Source of the DNA: Candidatus Zixiibacteriota bacterium
Lineage (GTDB): Bacteria; Zixibacteria; MSB-5A5; JAABVY01; JAHJOQ01
DNA: 8,090 nucleotides
NCBI GenBank assembly: GCA_030631455.1
Contig: DAOVLC010000049.1
Span: 1-8,090, forward strand
Direction of reading: 5' to 3'
Position numbers and translations under genes: made by a program. Under the pieces are notes generated by a model, which was given only the letters and a program-made list of their open reading frames with translations, did not search any database and was not told where the DNA came from. Shown one piece after another: positions 3,889-8,090 of this stretch; position 1 is the stretch's first letter, and the number at the start of each line of letters is the position of its first letter.

Positions 3889-6120
3889 TCACGCATGCAT
3901 TTTGTGTCTTCTCATTTTCGAGCGCAGTGTCGCCTCCGGTATCTGCAGAATCTGCGCCGCTTTTCGGATCACACCATTCGTCGACTTCAGCGCCTTCCTG
4001 ATCCTGTCCTGTTCGAAAACGGCAAGCTGATCGTTCAGCCCGCTCACGTTGCTGTAGTCAGCCGATTCCATGGGTTCCTTCAACTTCGATTCCAACCCGA
4101 GCAGCACTTCAGCGGGGTCACCTGAGTGCTCTAATGAAAGAAGTTGGATTTCATTCCTCAGTTCGCGTACGTTGCCGGGCCACTTGTATCGGAGGATGTT
4201 TGTGATGCTTTTCCTGTCGAAGAGCCCATTCAGGTCGTGTACGTCCAGCCCATTCTCGACCATGAAGAACTTCACCAACTCGATAATGTCCTCACGCCTC
4301 TGGCGGAGACTCGGAAGTTCGAAGGTCATAACCGCGATCCTGAAGTAGAGATCCTGGCGGAACTTACCGGCCGCAACGTCTTCTTCCAGTTCACGGTTGG
4401 TGGCGGTTATAAGCCTGAAATCGACAGATCTTGCGACAGTATCACCGATTCTCACGACGCGTTTCTCTTCAAGGCATCCGAGAAGCTTGGCCTGAAGAGC
4501 AAGCGGGAGTTCACCGATCTCGTTCAGGAAGAGCGTTCCTCCGTGAGCAGCAGATATATAACCTTCTTTGCTTTCGATGGCGTTTGTAAACGAACCTTTG
4601 ACATGTCCGAAGAGTTCGCTCTCTGCCAGATCTTTCGGGATAGCGGAGCAGTTGACAGGCACGAATGAACCGGCGGATCTGTTAGAGGAATGGTGAATGT
4701 ACTTCGCGAGAAGGTCCTTGCCGGTTCCCGTCTCACCGGTTATGAGTATCGGGATGTCGGAATCCTTGCAGTTGTCGACCACTCTCAGGATAGACCGCAT
4801 TTGCTTGTTCGCCGTCACAATGGCAACCGTCTCACCGGTTGCGCCTGCGACGAGATAGACATGCTTGTCGGATACTTCTGGTGCGCTCGACTGAGGCTTT
4901 CTGATCAGGTCTACTTCCAGCCCGATAGAATCGAACAGTTCCTCCGCCATGTGTTGGTAGAAGACCCTGCCCGCCTCGTCAAGCCAATTCATCTTGGAAC
5001 CACGCTCGTAGGCATCGGCAAGCTCGAATGTGGTGTTGAGTTCGCGAAGCAGCGAAAGAGCGTAATCGAACTGCTGTCTGCTGTCTGTCTGGCGACGGTT
5101 CCTATCTGAGATCTCCGACATAAGCTTCAGACATTCTGCGATCTCAAGCTTCTCGTCGATCTTCTCGGCTACATGCAGCGCCTTATTCGCAGCTTCCTCC
5201 GCTTCACTGACTCGGCGCATCTTGAACAGCACCAGCGCCTTCAAACGCTCGGATTGACTGATCAGGTCACCGTCGGCAGCGATGGCATATCCGATCTCAA
5301 GGGCGCTGTTTGCGCAGTTGAGCGCCTCGTCAAGATTCTCCAGAGCTATTGAGAGTTCCGCCCTGTATTCGTAGTAGATTGCCAGTTCCCGTTTCAGATC
5401 GTTGTCACGGATGATCGACAGGGCATTCTTGAGATTCCGGCGCGCGGAGTCATAGTTCGCTAACCGAATCTCGACAAGCGCAAGAGAAAGAAAGGCCCTC
5501 GCGAGGTTGACGCTGTTGCCGGTGTTGCTATTTTTCTCTACCGAAACAGACAGCTTTTCGACGGCGTCCTGGAATCTTCCCTCCCGGATCGCTATCTGGC
5601 CGAGGTTCCCACTGATCTTTGCGAGACGCACTTCATCGTGTAACTCCTCTGCCAGTTTCCAAGCCTCATCGAGCATACGCCGAGCCTCCACATAGTCGGC
5701 TCTCAGATAGCGAATTCCCGCAATCCTGTTGAGCGTGTCTACGAGGCCCTCGACATTTCCGGATCGTCTGTAACATGCGGCAACGTCACGATACTCCATT
5801 TCCGCACGATCGGTATCACCAAGGTAATGCTGGGCTTTTGCCATCTCTGCCTGCACGAGAGCCAGCAACTCATGTTCTGACGTTGCTCTGACCAGGTCGT
5901 ATGCCTCCGACGCGGCCGCAATGGCACTCCTGTAATCACCGATCTGATTAAATATGGAAGCCTTGTCTAACAGGAACTCAGCCGATTCGGATGTTTCCTC
6001 GGGAAACTGCGACTCGAGTCCCCTGGCCATCTCGATGGCTCCCTTCAGATCGCGATCACCGCAAAGCTGTGTGAACAGCCTAAGTTGTTCTATGTATTCC
6101 GGGCACTTAATTCTCGACAT
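3889..6120 (-). CDS. TPR / sigma54-type AAA+ / Fis-HTH transcription regulator
   Basis: 743 residues. Residues 48-362 hold about eight tetratricopeptide-like helical repeats, a protein-interaction scaffold in place of the usual receiver or PAS input. Residues 430-665 are a sigma54-interaction AAA+ domain: Walker A GETGTGKD (462-469), ESELFGH, the loop GSFTNA (509-514) where GAFTGA is usual, Walker B TLFLNE (529-534), sensor I LITATNREL, the Arg-finger region FRQDLYFR (587-594), and WPGNVREL (647-654). Residues 703-740 are a Fis-type helix-turn-helix. The family remodels sigma54 RNA polymerase with ATP. Two deviations stand out: Walker B has Asn533 where Asp normally helps hold Mg, and the loop has Asn513 for Gly. 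Phe511, Thr512 and Glu534 are kept. It follows the small secreted-protein gene by 5 bases with no clear Shine-Dalgarno site, so the pair is probably co-transcribed and coupled. Its signal and targets are unknown; it need not act only on sigma54 promoters. Confidence 0.88.
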   Translation of the reverse strand: MSRIKCPEYIEQLRLFTQLCGDRDLKGAIEMARGLESQFPEETSESAEFLLDKASIFNQIGDYRSAIAAASEAYDLVRATSEHELLALVQAEMAKAQHYLGDTDRAEMEYRDVAACYRRSGNVEGLVDTLNRIAGIRYLRADYVEARRMLDEAWKLAEELHDEVRLAKISGNLGQIAIREGRFQDAVEKLSVSVEKNSNTGNSVNLARAFLSLALVEIRLANYDSARRNLKNALSIIRDNDLKRELAIYYEYRAELSIALENLDEALNCANSALEIGYAIAADGDLISQSERLKALVLFKMRRVSEAEEAANKALHVAEKIDEKLEIAECLKLMSEISDRNRRQTDSRQQFDYALSLLRELNTTFELADAYERGSKMNWLDEAGRVFYQHMAEELFDSIGLEVDLIRKPQSSAPEVSDKHVYLVAGATGETVAIVTANKQMRSILRVVDNCKDSDIPILITGETGTGKDLLAKYIHHSSNRSAGSFVPVNCSAIPKDLAESELFGHVKGSFTNAIESKEGYISAAHGGTLFLNEIGELPLALQAKLLGCLEEKRVVRIGDTVARSVDFRLITATNRELEEDVAAGKFRQDLYFRIAVMTFELPSLRQRREDIIELVKFFMVENGLDVHDLNGLFDRKSITNILRYKWPGNVRELRNEIQLLSLEHSGDPAEVLLGLESKLKEPMESADYSNVSGLNDQLAVFEQDRIRKALKSTNGVIRKAAQILQIPEATLRSKMRRHKMHA

Positions 6121-6125
6121 GTGAA

Positions 6126-6488
6126 TTACTTCGTCTTCTTCTTCATTGCGGAGTTTTTGGGTATTGTTGCTTTCTTCACAGCCTTCTTAACCGGCGGAAG
6201 CACCTTGATGAACACCATCCGGAATCCGCCGAACGACGAAAGTATGTCCGGTGTGATCCAGATGTGAGTCGAACCACCACCGCCGTCAGCACTGGTTAAG
6301 TCGGATCCGCCTCCATCGTCGTCCTGCCACGGGTCTCCGTCCAGAGGTGGTGGATCGGTGTAGGTCTGGCCATCATCAAGCTTCTGAATCTGCCTTGGAT
6401 TATTGCCGTCCTTGGCAATCAAGGACGTAACGCCGAACAGCCCGAAAGCCAGCGTTACGGCGACTATCATCAGTTTGCTGGGTCTCAT
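6126..6488 (-). CDS. Small secreted Asp/Gly/Pro-rich protein, unknown function
   Basis: 120 residues. MRPSK plus a hydrophobic run and SLIA before KDG look like a Sec signal peptide cut near residue 25. The mature part has an acidic, Pro- and Gly-rich linker (DPPPLDGDPWQDDDGGGSD, then GGGGS), a short patch THIWITPDILSSFGGFRMVF that may be the only ordered piece, and a Lys-rich tail with KKAVKKA and KKKTK. I recognise no family. The ATG at 6488 is preferred because AGGAG (6497-6501) sits 8 bases upstream; a GTG at 6497 overlaps that site. It is the first gene of a probable operon with the TPR regulator, so it may be an extracytoplasmic partner or output of that regulator; this is inference only. 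Confidence 0.75.
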   Translation of the reverse strand: MRPSKLMIVAVTLAFGLFGVTSLIAKDGNNPRQIQKLDDGQTYTDPPPLDGDPWQDDDGGGSDLTSADGGGGSTHIWITPDILSSFGGFRMVFIKVLPPVKKAVKKATIPKNSAMKKKTK

Positions 6489-6512
6489 AAGACACACTCC
6501 TGAGTATCTAAG

Positions 6513-6803: not shown

Positions 6804-7451
6804 ATGACCAAAGTAACATTCGATCAGAAGTATGCTTCGAACAAACTCTATTGGGGGGCCAAACCGTCGAACCTTGTCAAGAACTTCGCCAAACTCGCCA
6901 AGATCGATCATGCTCTCGATCTCGGGATGGGCGAAGGAAGAGACTCCATCTATCTCGCCAAAGAGCAATTCAAAGTCACCGGAGTCGATCAGTCCGAGGT
7001 CGGTGTTGAAAAATGCCGGAAACGAGCAGAGAAACTGGGGCTGAAATTGAAAACTGTCACAGACGATGTTCGCCATTTCAAGATCGCGAAGAACAAATAC
7101 TCGCTTATTGTGTCCAGCAGTTTATTTCAATATATCACCAAGAGTGAAGCGCATCAAGTCGCTAGTGACATAATTGCCGGTTTGAAGAAGGGTGGCCTCA
7201 TTATAGCCTCTGTCTTCACCTATGACGATCCGCGATATAAAGAATTCAAGAAGAAGTGCAATGAATTGGAGCCGGGGTCGTTTCTCCAGGTTTCGGGTGA
7301 TATCTACTCACTTTATGACTGTAGAGAGTTGATGTCGTTCTTCGACTCTCTTCGCCTTCTATACTATACTGAGTACGACTACTACGAAACTCATGCCGGA
7401 AAAGGGGCACACTGGCACGGGGTCGCTGAGTTGGTTGCGAAGAAAGTGTAA
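6804..7451 (+). CDS. TehB-like SAM-dependent methyltransferase
   Basis: 215 residues, a class I (Rossmann-fold) methyltransferase. Motif I is HALDLGMGEGRDSIYLAKEQ (residues 36-55), followed by VTGVDQSEVGVEK with Asp62 as the likely ribose-binding acid. SLIVSSSLFQYI and LKKGGLIIAS are the next strands, and the C-terminal HAGKGAHWHGVAELVAKK resembles the end of TehB/TPMT-type enzymes, which methylate small thiols, tellurite or selenium compounds. The substrate here is not known. Motif I has Met where GCG is more usual. The frame extends back to 6639, but the promoter at 6739-6767 lies inside that extension, and AAGGTGGGAG (6791-6800) precedes the ATG at 6804. It is a single-gene unit, divergent from the secreted-protein/regulator operon. 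Confidence 0.85.
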   Translation: MTKVTFDQKYASNKLYWGAKPSNLVKNFAKLAKIDHALDLGMGEGRDSIYLAKEQFKVTGVDQSEVGVEKCRKRAEKLGLKLKTVTDDVRHFKIAKNKYSLIVSSSLFQYITKSEAHQVASDIIAGLKKGGLIIASVFTYDDPRYKEFKKKCNELEPGSFLQVSGDIYSLYDCRELMSFFDSLRLLYYTEYDYYETHAGKGAHWHGVAELVAKKV

Positions 7452-7502
7452 GAGCTTGGGCGGCCGTTGTGTTTCCCTAAGTATGTGGTTAGTTGGTACC
7501 AC

Positions 7503-7527
7503 GCGCAGAAGCTGCGCTGTTTCTGTT
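7503..7527 (+). terminator. Probable terminator of the methyltransferase gene
   Basis: GCGCAG (7503-7508) pairs with CTGCGC (7512-7517) around AAG, followed by TGTTTCTGTT. It lies 51 bases after the stop. The stem is short but GC-rich. A second dyad, AGGCCG (7553-7558) with CGGCCT (7570-7575), follows without a T run. Confidence 0.6.
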
Positions 7528-7638
7528 GGACTTTTGCGGGTGACTTTGCATGAGGCCGGTGCCGGAATGCGGCCTACAGCAGTTGTGTGTGGCGATCCGG
7601 CAATCGCACAAAATCGAGTCCTGATCGCAAAAAAAAGC

Positions 7639-7667
7639 TTGACAATCTATGATGTATTTCTTACAAT
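7639..7667 (+). promoter_or_regulatory. Consensus sigma70 promoter of a 23-codon gene
   Basis: TTGACA (7639-7644), a 17-base spacer and TACAAT (7662-7667), preceded by a run of eight A (7629-7636), which could act as an UP-like element. It is the best promoter match in the window. Transcription would begin near 7674. Confidence 0.85.
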
Positions 7668-7673
7668 ACATGT

Positions 7674-7775
7674 GTATGATGGGAAGTGTCATATAGTTTG
7701 GCCGAAAAAGGCCACTGAAGTATAACCTGCTGCGGCAGGTAACCGGTCGTCCATTTCACATTGGAGGTGAGACTG
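7674..7775 (+). promoter_or_regulatory. Structured 5' leader of the small-peptide gene
   Basis: About 100 bases between the inferred start of transcription and the ATG. It holds two hairpins: TGGCC (7699-7703) with GGCCA (7710-7714) around GAAAAA, and ACCTGC (7725-7730) with GCAGGT (7735-7740) around TGCG. TCAC (7756-7759) could weakly pair with GTGA (7767-7770) across the Shine-Dalgarno site. I recognise no known riboswitch. This is long for a 23-codon gene, so regulation of translation, or an RNA function of its own, is possible. Confidence 0.45.
7763..7770 (+). promoter_or_regulatory. Near-perfect Shine-Dalgarno site of the small ORF
   Basis: GGAGGTGA, an 8-base complement to the 16S rRNA 3' end, 5 bases before the ATG at 7776. 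It is the strongest translation start signal in the window and fixes the start against in-frame GTG and TTG codons just upstream. Confidence 0.85.
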
Positions 7776-7847
7776 ATGTACGAACTCCTAATCGAAGAAC
7801 TCGAGGAGAAGATCGCACCGGTTGGATGGAGCCTGGGCGGTCAATAA
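7776..7847 (+). CDS. 23-residue acidic peptide of unknown function
   Basis: A 23-codon ORF ending in TAA. Residues 1-14 (MYELLIEELEEKIA) would form an acidic amphipathic helix, with Leu4, Leu5, Leu9 and Ile13 on one face and five Glu. Residues 15-23 (PVGWSLGGQ) are a Pro/Gly-rich tail with one Trp. There is no Cys, no membrane segment and no signal peptide. A consensus promoter, a near-perfect Shine-Dalgarno site 5 bases upstream and a strong terminator 36 bases downstream make a dedicated transcription unit, which is the case for it being real. The helix-then-glycine layout recalls the leader and core of small ribosomally made modified peptides, but no modifying enzyme adjoins it except possibly the upstream methyltransferase, which has its own promoter and terminator. 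It could also be a regulatory or quorum-type peptide, or an ORF on a dual-function small RNA. I do not recognise it. Confidence 0.7.
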   Translation: MYELLIEELEEKIAPVGWSLGGQ

Positions 7848-7883
7848 GATCTTGCTCGGTGCAATGATCGATGACCGGAATTT

Positions 7884-7917
7884 GAGGCTGCCTGAAAAGG
7901 CAGCCTCATTCCTTTAT
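7884..7917 (+). terminator. Strong intrinsic terminator of the small-peptide gene
   Basis: A perfect 10-bp stem, GAGGCTGCCT (7884-7893) with AGGCAGCCTC (7898-7907), closed by a GAAA tetraloop and followed by ATTCCTTTAT. It overlaps the end of the convergent minus-strand gene and may serve both directions, though the plus-strand tail is more U-rich. Confidence 0.88.
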
Positions 7918-8090
7918 GCAAGTTTCACTGCCAGCTGCCTGACGGACTCGATCAACTCCAGCTTGTCTCCTCCGCTCATGTAGCTCTTTACTAGTCCTTT
8001 GTCGGTTATATTGCCGGCGATTTCCCTCAGTATCGTCCCTGCCTTCTTAAGCTTCAGGAAGGCATCTTCATACTCCAACTGCGCCATACA
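7914..8090 (-). CDS. C-terminal end of an unknown, probably TPR-type, protein
   Basis: The minus-strand frame is open from the window edge to a TAA at 7914-7916. There is an ATG at 8085-8087 that would give 57 residues, but the frame continues into the preceding codon and no Shine-Dalgarno site can be seen, so the true start is probably outside. The visible part is helical and charged. The segment with ILREIAGNITDKGLVKSYM resembles the ends of large TPR-containing ATPases, cyclases and regulators, where an 'IA..I.D..L..S(Y/F)' pattern recurs; this is recalled family knowledge, not a search result. If the internal Met is the start, it would be a small hypothetical protein. It converges on the 23-codon gene. 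Confidence 0.65.
   Translation of the reverse strand, partial: CMAQLEYEDAFLKLKKAGTILREIAGNITDKGLVKSYMSGGDKLELIESVRQLAVKLA

Follow-up and report, generated by a model that had tools for sequence, protein, structure and literature searches.

What is a reading frame of only 23 codons doing behind an almost ideal set of expression signals? The window that raises this question is the whole stretch of 8,090 nucleotides analysed here from Candidatus Zixiibacteriota (contig DAOVLC010000049.1 of assembly GCA_030631455.1, our G000:C214), and its contig stops at base 8090, shortly behind the frame. A preliminary description of these letters had proposed that such signals would rarely gather around a chance frame, that the peptide was an orphan and could represent a new family, and that it might be the precursor of a modified peptide, a signalling peptide or a small protein acting inside the cell. 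Searches of a library of open-access papers returned none on the peptide, on its leader strings or on such a module in Zixibacteria.

The promoter, the Shine-Dalgarno site and the frame were confirmed letter by letter (Table 1), and the terminator hairpin, with its GAAA loop and U-rich tail, lies where it had been placed, its stem measuring 11 bp in our scan rather than the 10 originally given. In both strands of positions 7000-8090 the window promoter was the best of five sites, where shuffled sequences lead one to expect 0.9, and transcription would start at about 7674, the position that the preliminary description had predicted. The signals recur at homologous loci. Sigma-70 sites of at least 10/12 were found in 56 of 97 homologous upstream regions, against 4.8 expected from shuffles, and sites of at least 9/12 in 71 of the 97, against 22.9; 43 of these 71 end 77-111 nt ahead of the start codon, the window site at 108 nt. 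A full seven-base Shine-Dalgarno match precedes 87 of 99 homologues, a count that leans upward because the homologous start codons (85 ATG, 7 GTG and 7 TTG) were picked by their Shine-Dalgarno score.

Table 1. Features of the peptide locus in the window.
Feature	Position	Strand	Remarks
Sigma-70-like promoter, TTGACA-17-TACAAT, 11/12	7639..7667	+	Scan; recurs at homologous loci
-35 element TTGACA	7639..7644	+	Spacer of 17 nt
-10 element TACAAT	7662..7667	+
5' UTR hairpin, ACCTGC-TGCG-GCAGGT	7725..7740	+	Hairpin scan
Shine-Dalgarno site GGAGGTGA	7763..7770	+	5 nt ahead of ATG 7776
23-codon gene of the putative precursor peptide, MYELLIEELEEKIAPVGWSLGGQ	7776..7847	+	Codons 7776-7844, TAA 7845-7847
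Leader-coding part, M1-P15 (MYELLIEELEEKIAP)	7776..7820	+	Putative RRE recognition helix
Predicted core, VGWSLGGQ	7821..7844	+	Putative cleavage after P15
Intrinsic-terminator-like hairpin	7883..7908	+	Between the stop codons of two convergent genes
Ser/Thr kinase-TPR gene, 3' end (177 bases)	7914..8090	-	Cut by the contig end

The frame itself is spread through nearly the whole phylum, mostly as a single copy. A first blastn search with a 288-bp region against 98 genomes retrieved 20 loci, 19 of them with the frame; the remaining one (L021) was discarded as a chance match, and other matches at E<=10 were mostly chance. A profile built from 20 of the peptides was then used against 132 Zixibacteria genomes, all those available for the class and equally for the phylum, and it found the frame in 98 of them at E<=1e-3. 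At E<=1 it matched 108 genomes, the weakest matches being chance, and among the weaker ones four (G022, G031, G036 and G046) proved on inspection to be clear frames. Nine of 13 inspected genomes were without the peptide; in G040, G082, G089, G093 and G098 contig ends lay too near to judge. The 99 loci counted below are those of the 98 genomes together with G073 (E 0.0026), leaving uncounted the second peptide places in G052 (C227) and G094 (C48) and extra tandem copies; their peptides range from 21 to 35 residues. With promoters recurring and the frame present to this extent, the earlier suspicion that the signals exceed chance is borne out, and the proposed new family is indeed a conserved one.

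The excess of third-position substitutions that the preliminary description had regarded as the mark of a true frame is evident in the leader part. Across 11 codons ahead of the tail, compared among 13 sequences from the closest families, the differences summed over all pairs at codon positions 1, 2 and 3 were 125, 34 and 479, and pN/pS was 0.095 (pN 0.082; pS 0.87, near saturation). On this pattern of substitution the leader codons are evidently under purifying selection, and we consider it virtually certain that positions 7776-7847 hold a real, translated peptide gene. The contrary reading, that the frame arose by chance within a structured small RNA or where two convergent 3' UTRs overlap, could appeal to the unusually good folding of the window transcript (z -6.5), which is partly due to the terminator hairpin. 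Against it stand the codon-position pattern, which already refutes it, the conservation of amino acids across the phylum, the frequency of complete Shine-Dalgarno matches and a pairing of the Shine-Dalgarno site no higher than in controls (0.52 in both), and it is scarcely credible. The same pairing value led us to reject a thermometer or riboswitch that sequesters this site.

The 5' UTR nonetheless has a structure of its own. Between -85 and -25 nt from the start codon, 56 of 98 loci have a hairpin above the 95th percentile of 40 of their own shuffles; its place is conserved (3' end at a median of 37 nt ahead of the start) and the letters of its stem differ between loci. This claim relies solely on the hairpin scan of the 98 loci, and not on folding z-scores from 34 loci, whose medians were -3.88 for UTR, frame and 90 further nt and -1.50 for the UTR alone. 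The region has no Rfam match at gathering thresholds; two weak matches to eukaryotic families, obtained at a relaxed threshold, share positions with the terminator hairpin and were put down to chance, so that no known RNA element was assigned. In the window an inverted repeat, ACCGGTCGT (7742-7750) and ATGACCGG (7871-7878), flanks the frame and closes a long-range fold of the transcript, and a related genome (G002) shows similar letters, ACCGGTCATC and GATGACCGG.

The two ends of the peptide evolve differently, the leader being nearly fixed and the tail varying. The leader ends in L-E-x-K/R-x-A-P, and counting back from the A-P dipeptide, L(-7), E(-6), K/R(-4) and P(-1) are each present in 99 of 99 peptides, as is one of I, V, L or T at -3, with A(-2) and L(-12) in 97 and E(-9) in 94, a constancy that is partly selection because the members were gathered with a profile. 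Behind the proline the tail is variable and mostly S-x-G-G-Q-like (S-x-G-G in 79/99, GGQ in 68/99). Tails are rich in Gly, Ser and Gln, and Cys occurs in two of the 99 peptides; the leader has a GRAVY of about 0 and no hydrophobic signal stretch. A conserved N-terminal part joined to an exchangeable C-terminal part corresponds to the plan of a leader-core precursor, and as in RiPPs generally a ribosomal precursor here combines a conserved leader with a variable core. In one genus (g52) the gene forms tandem arrays of seven, four and two copies (L165, L167 and L171) in three of the four stretches examined, the copies keeping the leader and carrying a different tail, S[RK][YWF]G..

If the leader is to be recognized, what recognizes it? 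At 55 of the 99 loci an M50 site-2 protease-HlyD fusion of about 770-800 residues is encoded upstream on the same strand, at a median distance of 256 nt (maximum 1034); of the other 44 loci, seven stop too early for a decision and 37 are flanked by different genes. Genome-wide, the fusion occurs in 101 of 132 genomes, a figure reduced from 105 matches by leaving out HlyD-only matches in G083, G025, G019 and G032. The window's own genome encodes it on another contig, as 628 residues running to the contig end with HEFAH and LDG present, and HExxH and LDG are found in 52 of 52 of these proteins. Peptide and fusion are both present in 91 genomes, the peptide alone in 7, the protease alone in 10 and neither in 24 (p=1.3e-12, a value that overstates the association because genomes are not independent samples); inclusion of the weaker peptide matches changes these counts to 97, 7, 4 and 24.

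Pfam PqqD recognizes the N-terminal part of 18 of 48 fusion proteins at E<=0.1, and residues 21-110 are predicted to fold into three strands and three helices (pLDDT 94-98). The best structural matches of this domain are the leader-binding RREs of lasso-peptide enzymes and of TigE, with PqqD lower down among some unrelated methyltransferases that have a like domain. The fusion is thus predicted to carry an N-terminal RRE-like domain, and a predicted RRE-containing partner that co-occurs with the precursor is again what RiPP systems in general present. Of eight partial Mantel tests the sole positive one (0.29) related the leader to the M50-HlyD part behind the RRE; leader against the RRE part alone was not significant. 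The strongest links in the whole locus are those of the leader with the RRE-protease, namely predicted fold, motif, co-occurrence and partial Mantel correlation, and very probably the peptide is a substrate of this enzyme.

Alternatively, the peptide might serve as scaffold or precursor for a modified product, a RiPP cofactor or an alkaloid, whose modifying enzymes lie nearby or elsewhere. Besides the RRE logic, such a reading could cite the likeness of the leader to the ammosamide/lymphostin model NF033737, though the window peptide, at 13.6 bits, and that of G052, at 20.7 bits (E 3.4e-4), both stay below its cut-off of 30, as well as the action of M50 enzymes in pearlin and epipeptide pathways, as the excerpted text of PMC10885120 describes it. 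A gene for an FAD-dependent oxidoreductase (Pfam DAO) does stand upstream on the opposite strand at 27 of 99 loci, but it looks like a bystander because it is also found in G083 and G114, which have neither peptide nor protease; tails of Gly, Ser and Gln with almost no Cys also speak against modification, and we regard this product as improbable. A CLC channel gene lies upstream on the strand of the peptide at 30 loci, and apart from it and the protease no same-strand upstream family, as clustered, occurs in more than six loci, some neighbours having no family. We rejected the CLC channel and the FAD oxidoreductase as candidates for an exporter or a modifying enzyme; an exporter or immunity gene may still lie among the neighbours that have no family.

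Downstream, the peptide is no orphan, contrary to the preliminary description: at 89 of 99 loci it faces a convergent Ser/Thr kinase-TPR gene across a gap of 7-510 nt (median 54). Three of the other ten loci end too soon, and seven have no such gene within 600 nt. In the window, the segment 7914-8090 on the minus strand scores 56 bits against the kinase-TPR reference proteins of relatives. Of 79 full-length Ser/Thr kinases adjoining the peptide gene, 77 keep HxDxKxxN, with DFS in 39 and DFG in 14, these counts being made with a looser pattern where a stricter one gave 65 and 14 of 79. Behind the kinase-TPR gene lies a gene for a GAF-PAS histidine kinase (Pfam, from the G002 protein), which a search at E<=1e-60 detects in 112 of 132 genomes; the window's own assembly, which is incomplete, gave no match. 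By simple hydropathy, membrane segments are absent from all 79 Ser/Thr kinases and from 77 of 79 histidine kinases.

Elsewhere in the window, a TPR-sigma54-activator gene (743 aa) occupies 3889-6120 on the minus strand, directly preceded by a 123-aa frame (6126-6497, minus strand) with an N-terminal hydrophobic segment and a Lys-rich end. This frame matches nothing in Pfam or NCBIfam and may code for a further small secreted product next to the gene of a TPR regulator. By Pfam, positions 438-2615 on the plus strand encode an LpxC-FabA/FabZ-like fusion, and an LpxA-like gene comes next.

Losses inform on how the genes belong together. In G083 and G114 the CLC gene abuts that of the histidine kinase at a distance of 6 and 12 nt, and the locus has no gene for protease, peptide or Ser/Thr kinase; G082 resembles them, its CLC gene being cut by the contig start. 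G102 is missing protease and peptide but retains the kinase, and G023 likewise has a kinase without protease or peptide. From these joint absences the genes appear to behave as a unit of which the kinase is the looser member. The evidence that would tie the tail to the kinases is gene order and joint absence: tail and TPR distances were uncorrelated, partial Mantel tests detected no co-divergence of tail and kinase, and receptor-ligand co-divergence of tail and TPR was accordingly rejected. Dependence on Opp for re-import was also provisionally set aside, a search for the Opp-type binding protein (SBP_bac_5) having found it in 22 of 98 peptide genomes.

Our preferred reading, to which we would give an even chance, is that of a leader-core precursor cut after Pro15 under guidance of an RRE, whose octapeptide VGWSLGGQ signals through the kinase-TPR/histidine-kinase pair. 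The letters and their conservation show the tiny frame preceded by a sigma-70-like promoter, by a 5' UTR that contains a hairpin and by a Shine-Dalgarno site close to consensus. The leader MYELLIEELEEKIAP would dock on the RRE of the M50-HlyD protein, as predicted fold, motif likeness and co-occurrence suggest. By analogy with the daptides, whose numbering with P(-1) implies that cleavage falls just behind A-P, the enzyme would cut directly behind that dipeptide and free VGWSLGGQ as the core; cleavage at this point strikes us as fairly probable. The HlyD part suggests that the tail peptide may leave the cell, and gene order and joint absence that the two kinases may respond to it. Signalling through the kinases, taken by itself, we hold to be close to evenly balanced. 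As both kinases look cytosolic and the Opp-type binding protein is rare, it may alternatively be the uncut or unexported precursor that the kinase senses within the cell.

The cytosolic look of the kinases and the rarity of the binding protein lend themselves also to a peptide that stays uncut in the cell and acts on the convergent kinase as adaptor or inhibitor until the membrane protease removes it and so resets the pathway, and the acidic leader helix could conceivably bind TPRs. Yet it is with the protease, and not with the TPR region, that leader distances correlate, and in g52, where no Ser/Thr kinase-TPR gene was seen in the stretches examined, the leaders are kept, so that we assign little probability to this idea. 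The altered tails of those tandem copies speak for a secreted product, such as a small bacteriocin or an envelope or matrix peptide, matured by RRE, protease and HlyD and merely controlled in its production by the kinases. The evidence for maturation is the same as for a signal, kinases adjoining a gene may well regulate that gene, and the missing co-divergence of tail and kinase is in keeping with this. Bacteriocins, however, are sporadic and fast-changing, whereas this gene is nearly phylum-wide, mostly single-copy and commonly ends in S-x-G-G, and beside CLC and protease no same-strand upstream gene among those assigned to a family recurs in more than six loci; a secreted product is on balance unlikely. 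Of the three roles originally proposed, modified-peptide precursor and signalling peptide are now favoured because of the leader-core architecture, the co-occurrence with the RRE-protease-HlyD fusion and the recurrent kinase neighbour.

Similar leaders with other tails occur in Acidobacteria records and in one of Candidatus Sulfopaludibacter, which we take to belong to the Acidobacteria. Two loci (L089 and L225) present in a row M50-HlyD, peptide and HD-GYP/GGDEF-like genes, after which a kinase-like gene begins; a third (L226) likewise has M50-HlyD, peptide and HD-GYP/GGDEF-like genes, a fourth (L224) the peptide with a protease gene broken into two, and a fifth (L079, at a contig end) peptide, HD-GYP/GGDEF and kinase-AAA-TPR-sigma54. 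Protein searches with two longer Acidobacteria peptides matched three unnamed proteins and one, the first query being among the three. Six further Acidobacteria stretches (L071, L074, L075, L084, L086 and L088) each hold one or two IEELEAKVAPDGGETVLPLP-type peptides, which in L071 adjoin an aconitase-like gene (Pfam); in other stretches such peptides lie beside frames that look similar by eye, and the frame often found near them presumably resembles 6-pyruvoyl-tetrahydropterin synthase.

As a broader proposal, which we advance tentatively and put somewhat short of an even chance, these loci would represent a phylum-wide Gram-negative module: a precursor of 21-35 residues, cut by an RRE/site-2 protease and exported through HlyD, would yield an unmodified peptide of about 6-20 residues that is read out by the Ser/Thr kinase-TPR/histidine-kinase pair, with related leader-core precursors in Acidobacteria bearing other cores and c-di-GMP-type outputs. 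The best-known examples of peptide signalling with a maturation apparatus of its own come from Gram-positive bacteria; if true, an equivalent spread almost throughout a Gram-negative phylum with few cultured members would be new. In that event the RRE-site-2 protease machinery familiar from clusters for natural products would also be capable of a housekeeping role in signalling, and 23 codons would have sufficed to conceal a widely conserved gene. With two genes for maturation and two for response, the module is small enough to be tested in E. coli.

Among known systems, the daptides (precursor MpaA, protease MpaP) come closest. According to the excerpted text of PMC10036551, they too have an RRE fused N-terminally to a site-2 protease, their precursors carry the motif ELExMEAP, and changing L(-7) or M(-4) abolishes modification by the RRE-bearing MpaB/MpaC pair. 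The Zixibacteria leaders share the ending L-E-x-x-x-A-P with its Leu(-7) and Pro(-1), but in all 99 peptides K/R and I/V/L/T replace the M(-4) and E(-3) of the motif as that text gives it. Tandem precursors can occur in both systems. The NCBIfam daptide protease model matches the M50-HlyD protein at E 5e-66 with 223 bits, below its cut-off of 300. Unlike in daptides, the protease is fused to HlyD, a kinase neighbour recurs and the invariant C-terminal Thr is absent (0/99); the daptide oxidative decarboxylase, aminotransferase and methyltransferase are absent from the recurrent neighbour clusters at the loci. We do not class the family with the daptides, since it has neither their C-terminal Thr nor their precise motif.

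Like the epipeptide protease YydH/LiaK/EpeP, the fusion is a membrane M50 protease that appears to serve a small ribosomal peptide, but it has RRE-like and HlyD parts, scores 40.9 bits against that NCBIfam model (cut-off 225), and no radical SAM epimerase was noticed in the neighbourhood of the peptide gene. With the ammosamide/lymphostin (pearlin) precursors the peptide shares an acidic leader, its match to their model remaining under the curated cut-off. In the RRNPP systems (Rap/Phr, NprR, PlcR) and in Rgg-SHP a tiny peptide gene lies beside the gene of a TPR-containing regulator, as it adjoins a TPR protein gene at 89 of 99 loci here. In Zixibacteria, unlike those systems, the TPR part belongs to a Ser/Thr kinase, the protease is predicted to be RRE-guided, the peptide has no hydrophobic signal stretch and the Opp-type binding protein is rare. 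Agr (AgrB-AgrD-AgrC) combines a membrane protease, a small precursor and a kinase, and the same set recurs here with an M50 metalloprotease bearing an RRE, hardly any Cys in the peptides and kinases without membrane segments. The Zixibacteria locus resembles Agr and RRNPP in having a protease, a precursor and a regulator, though the parts that define those systems were not encountered at it.
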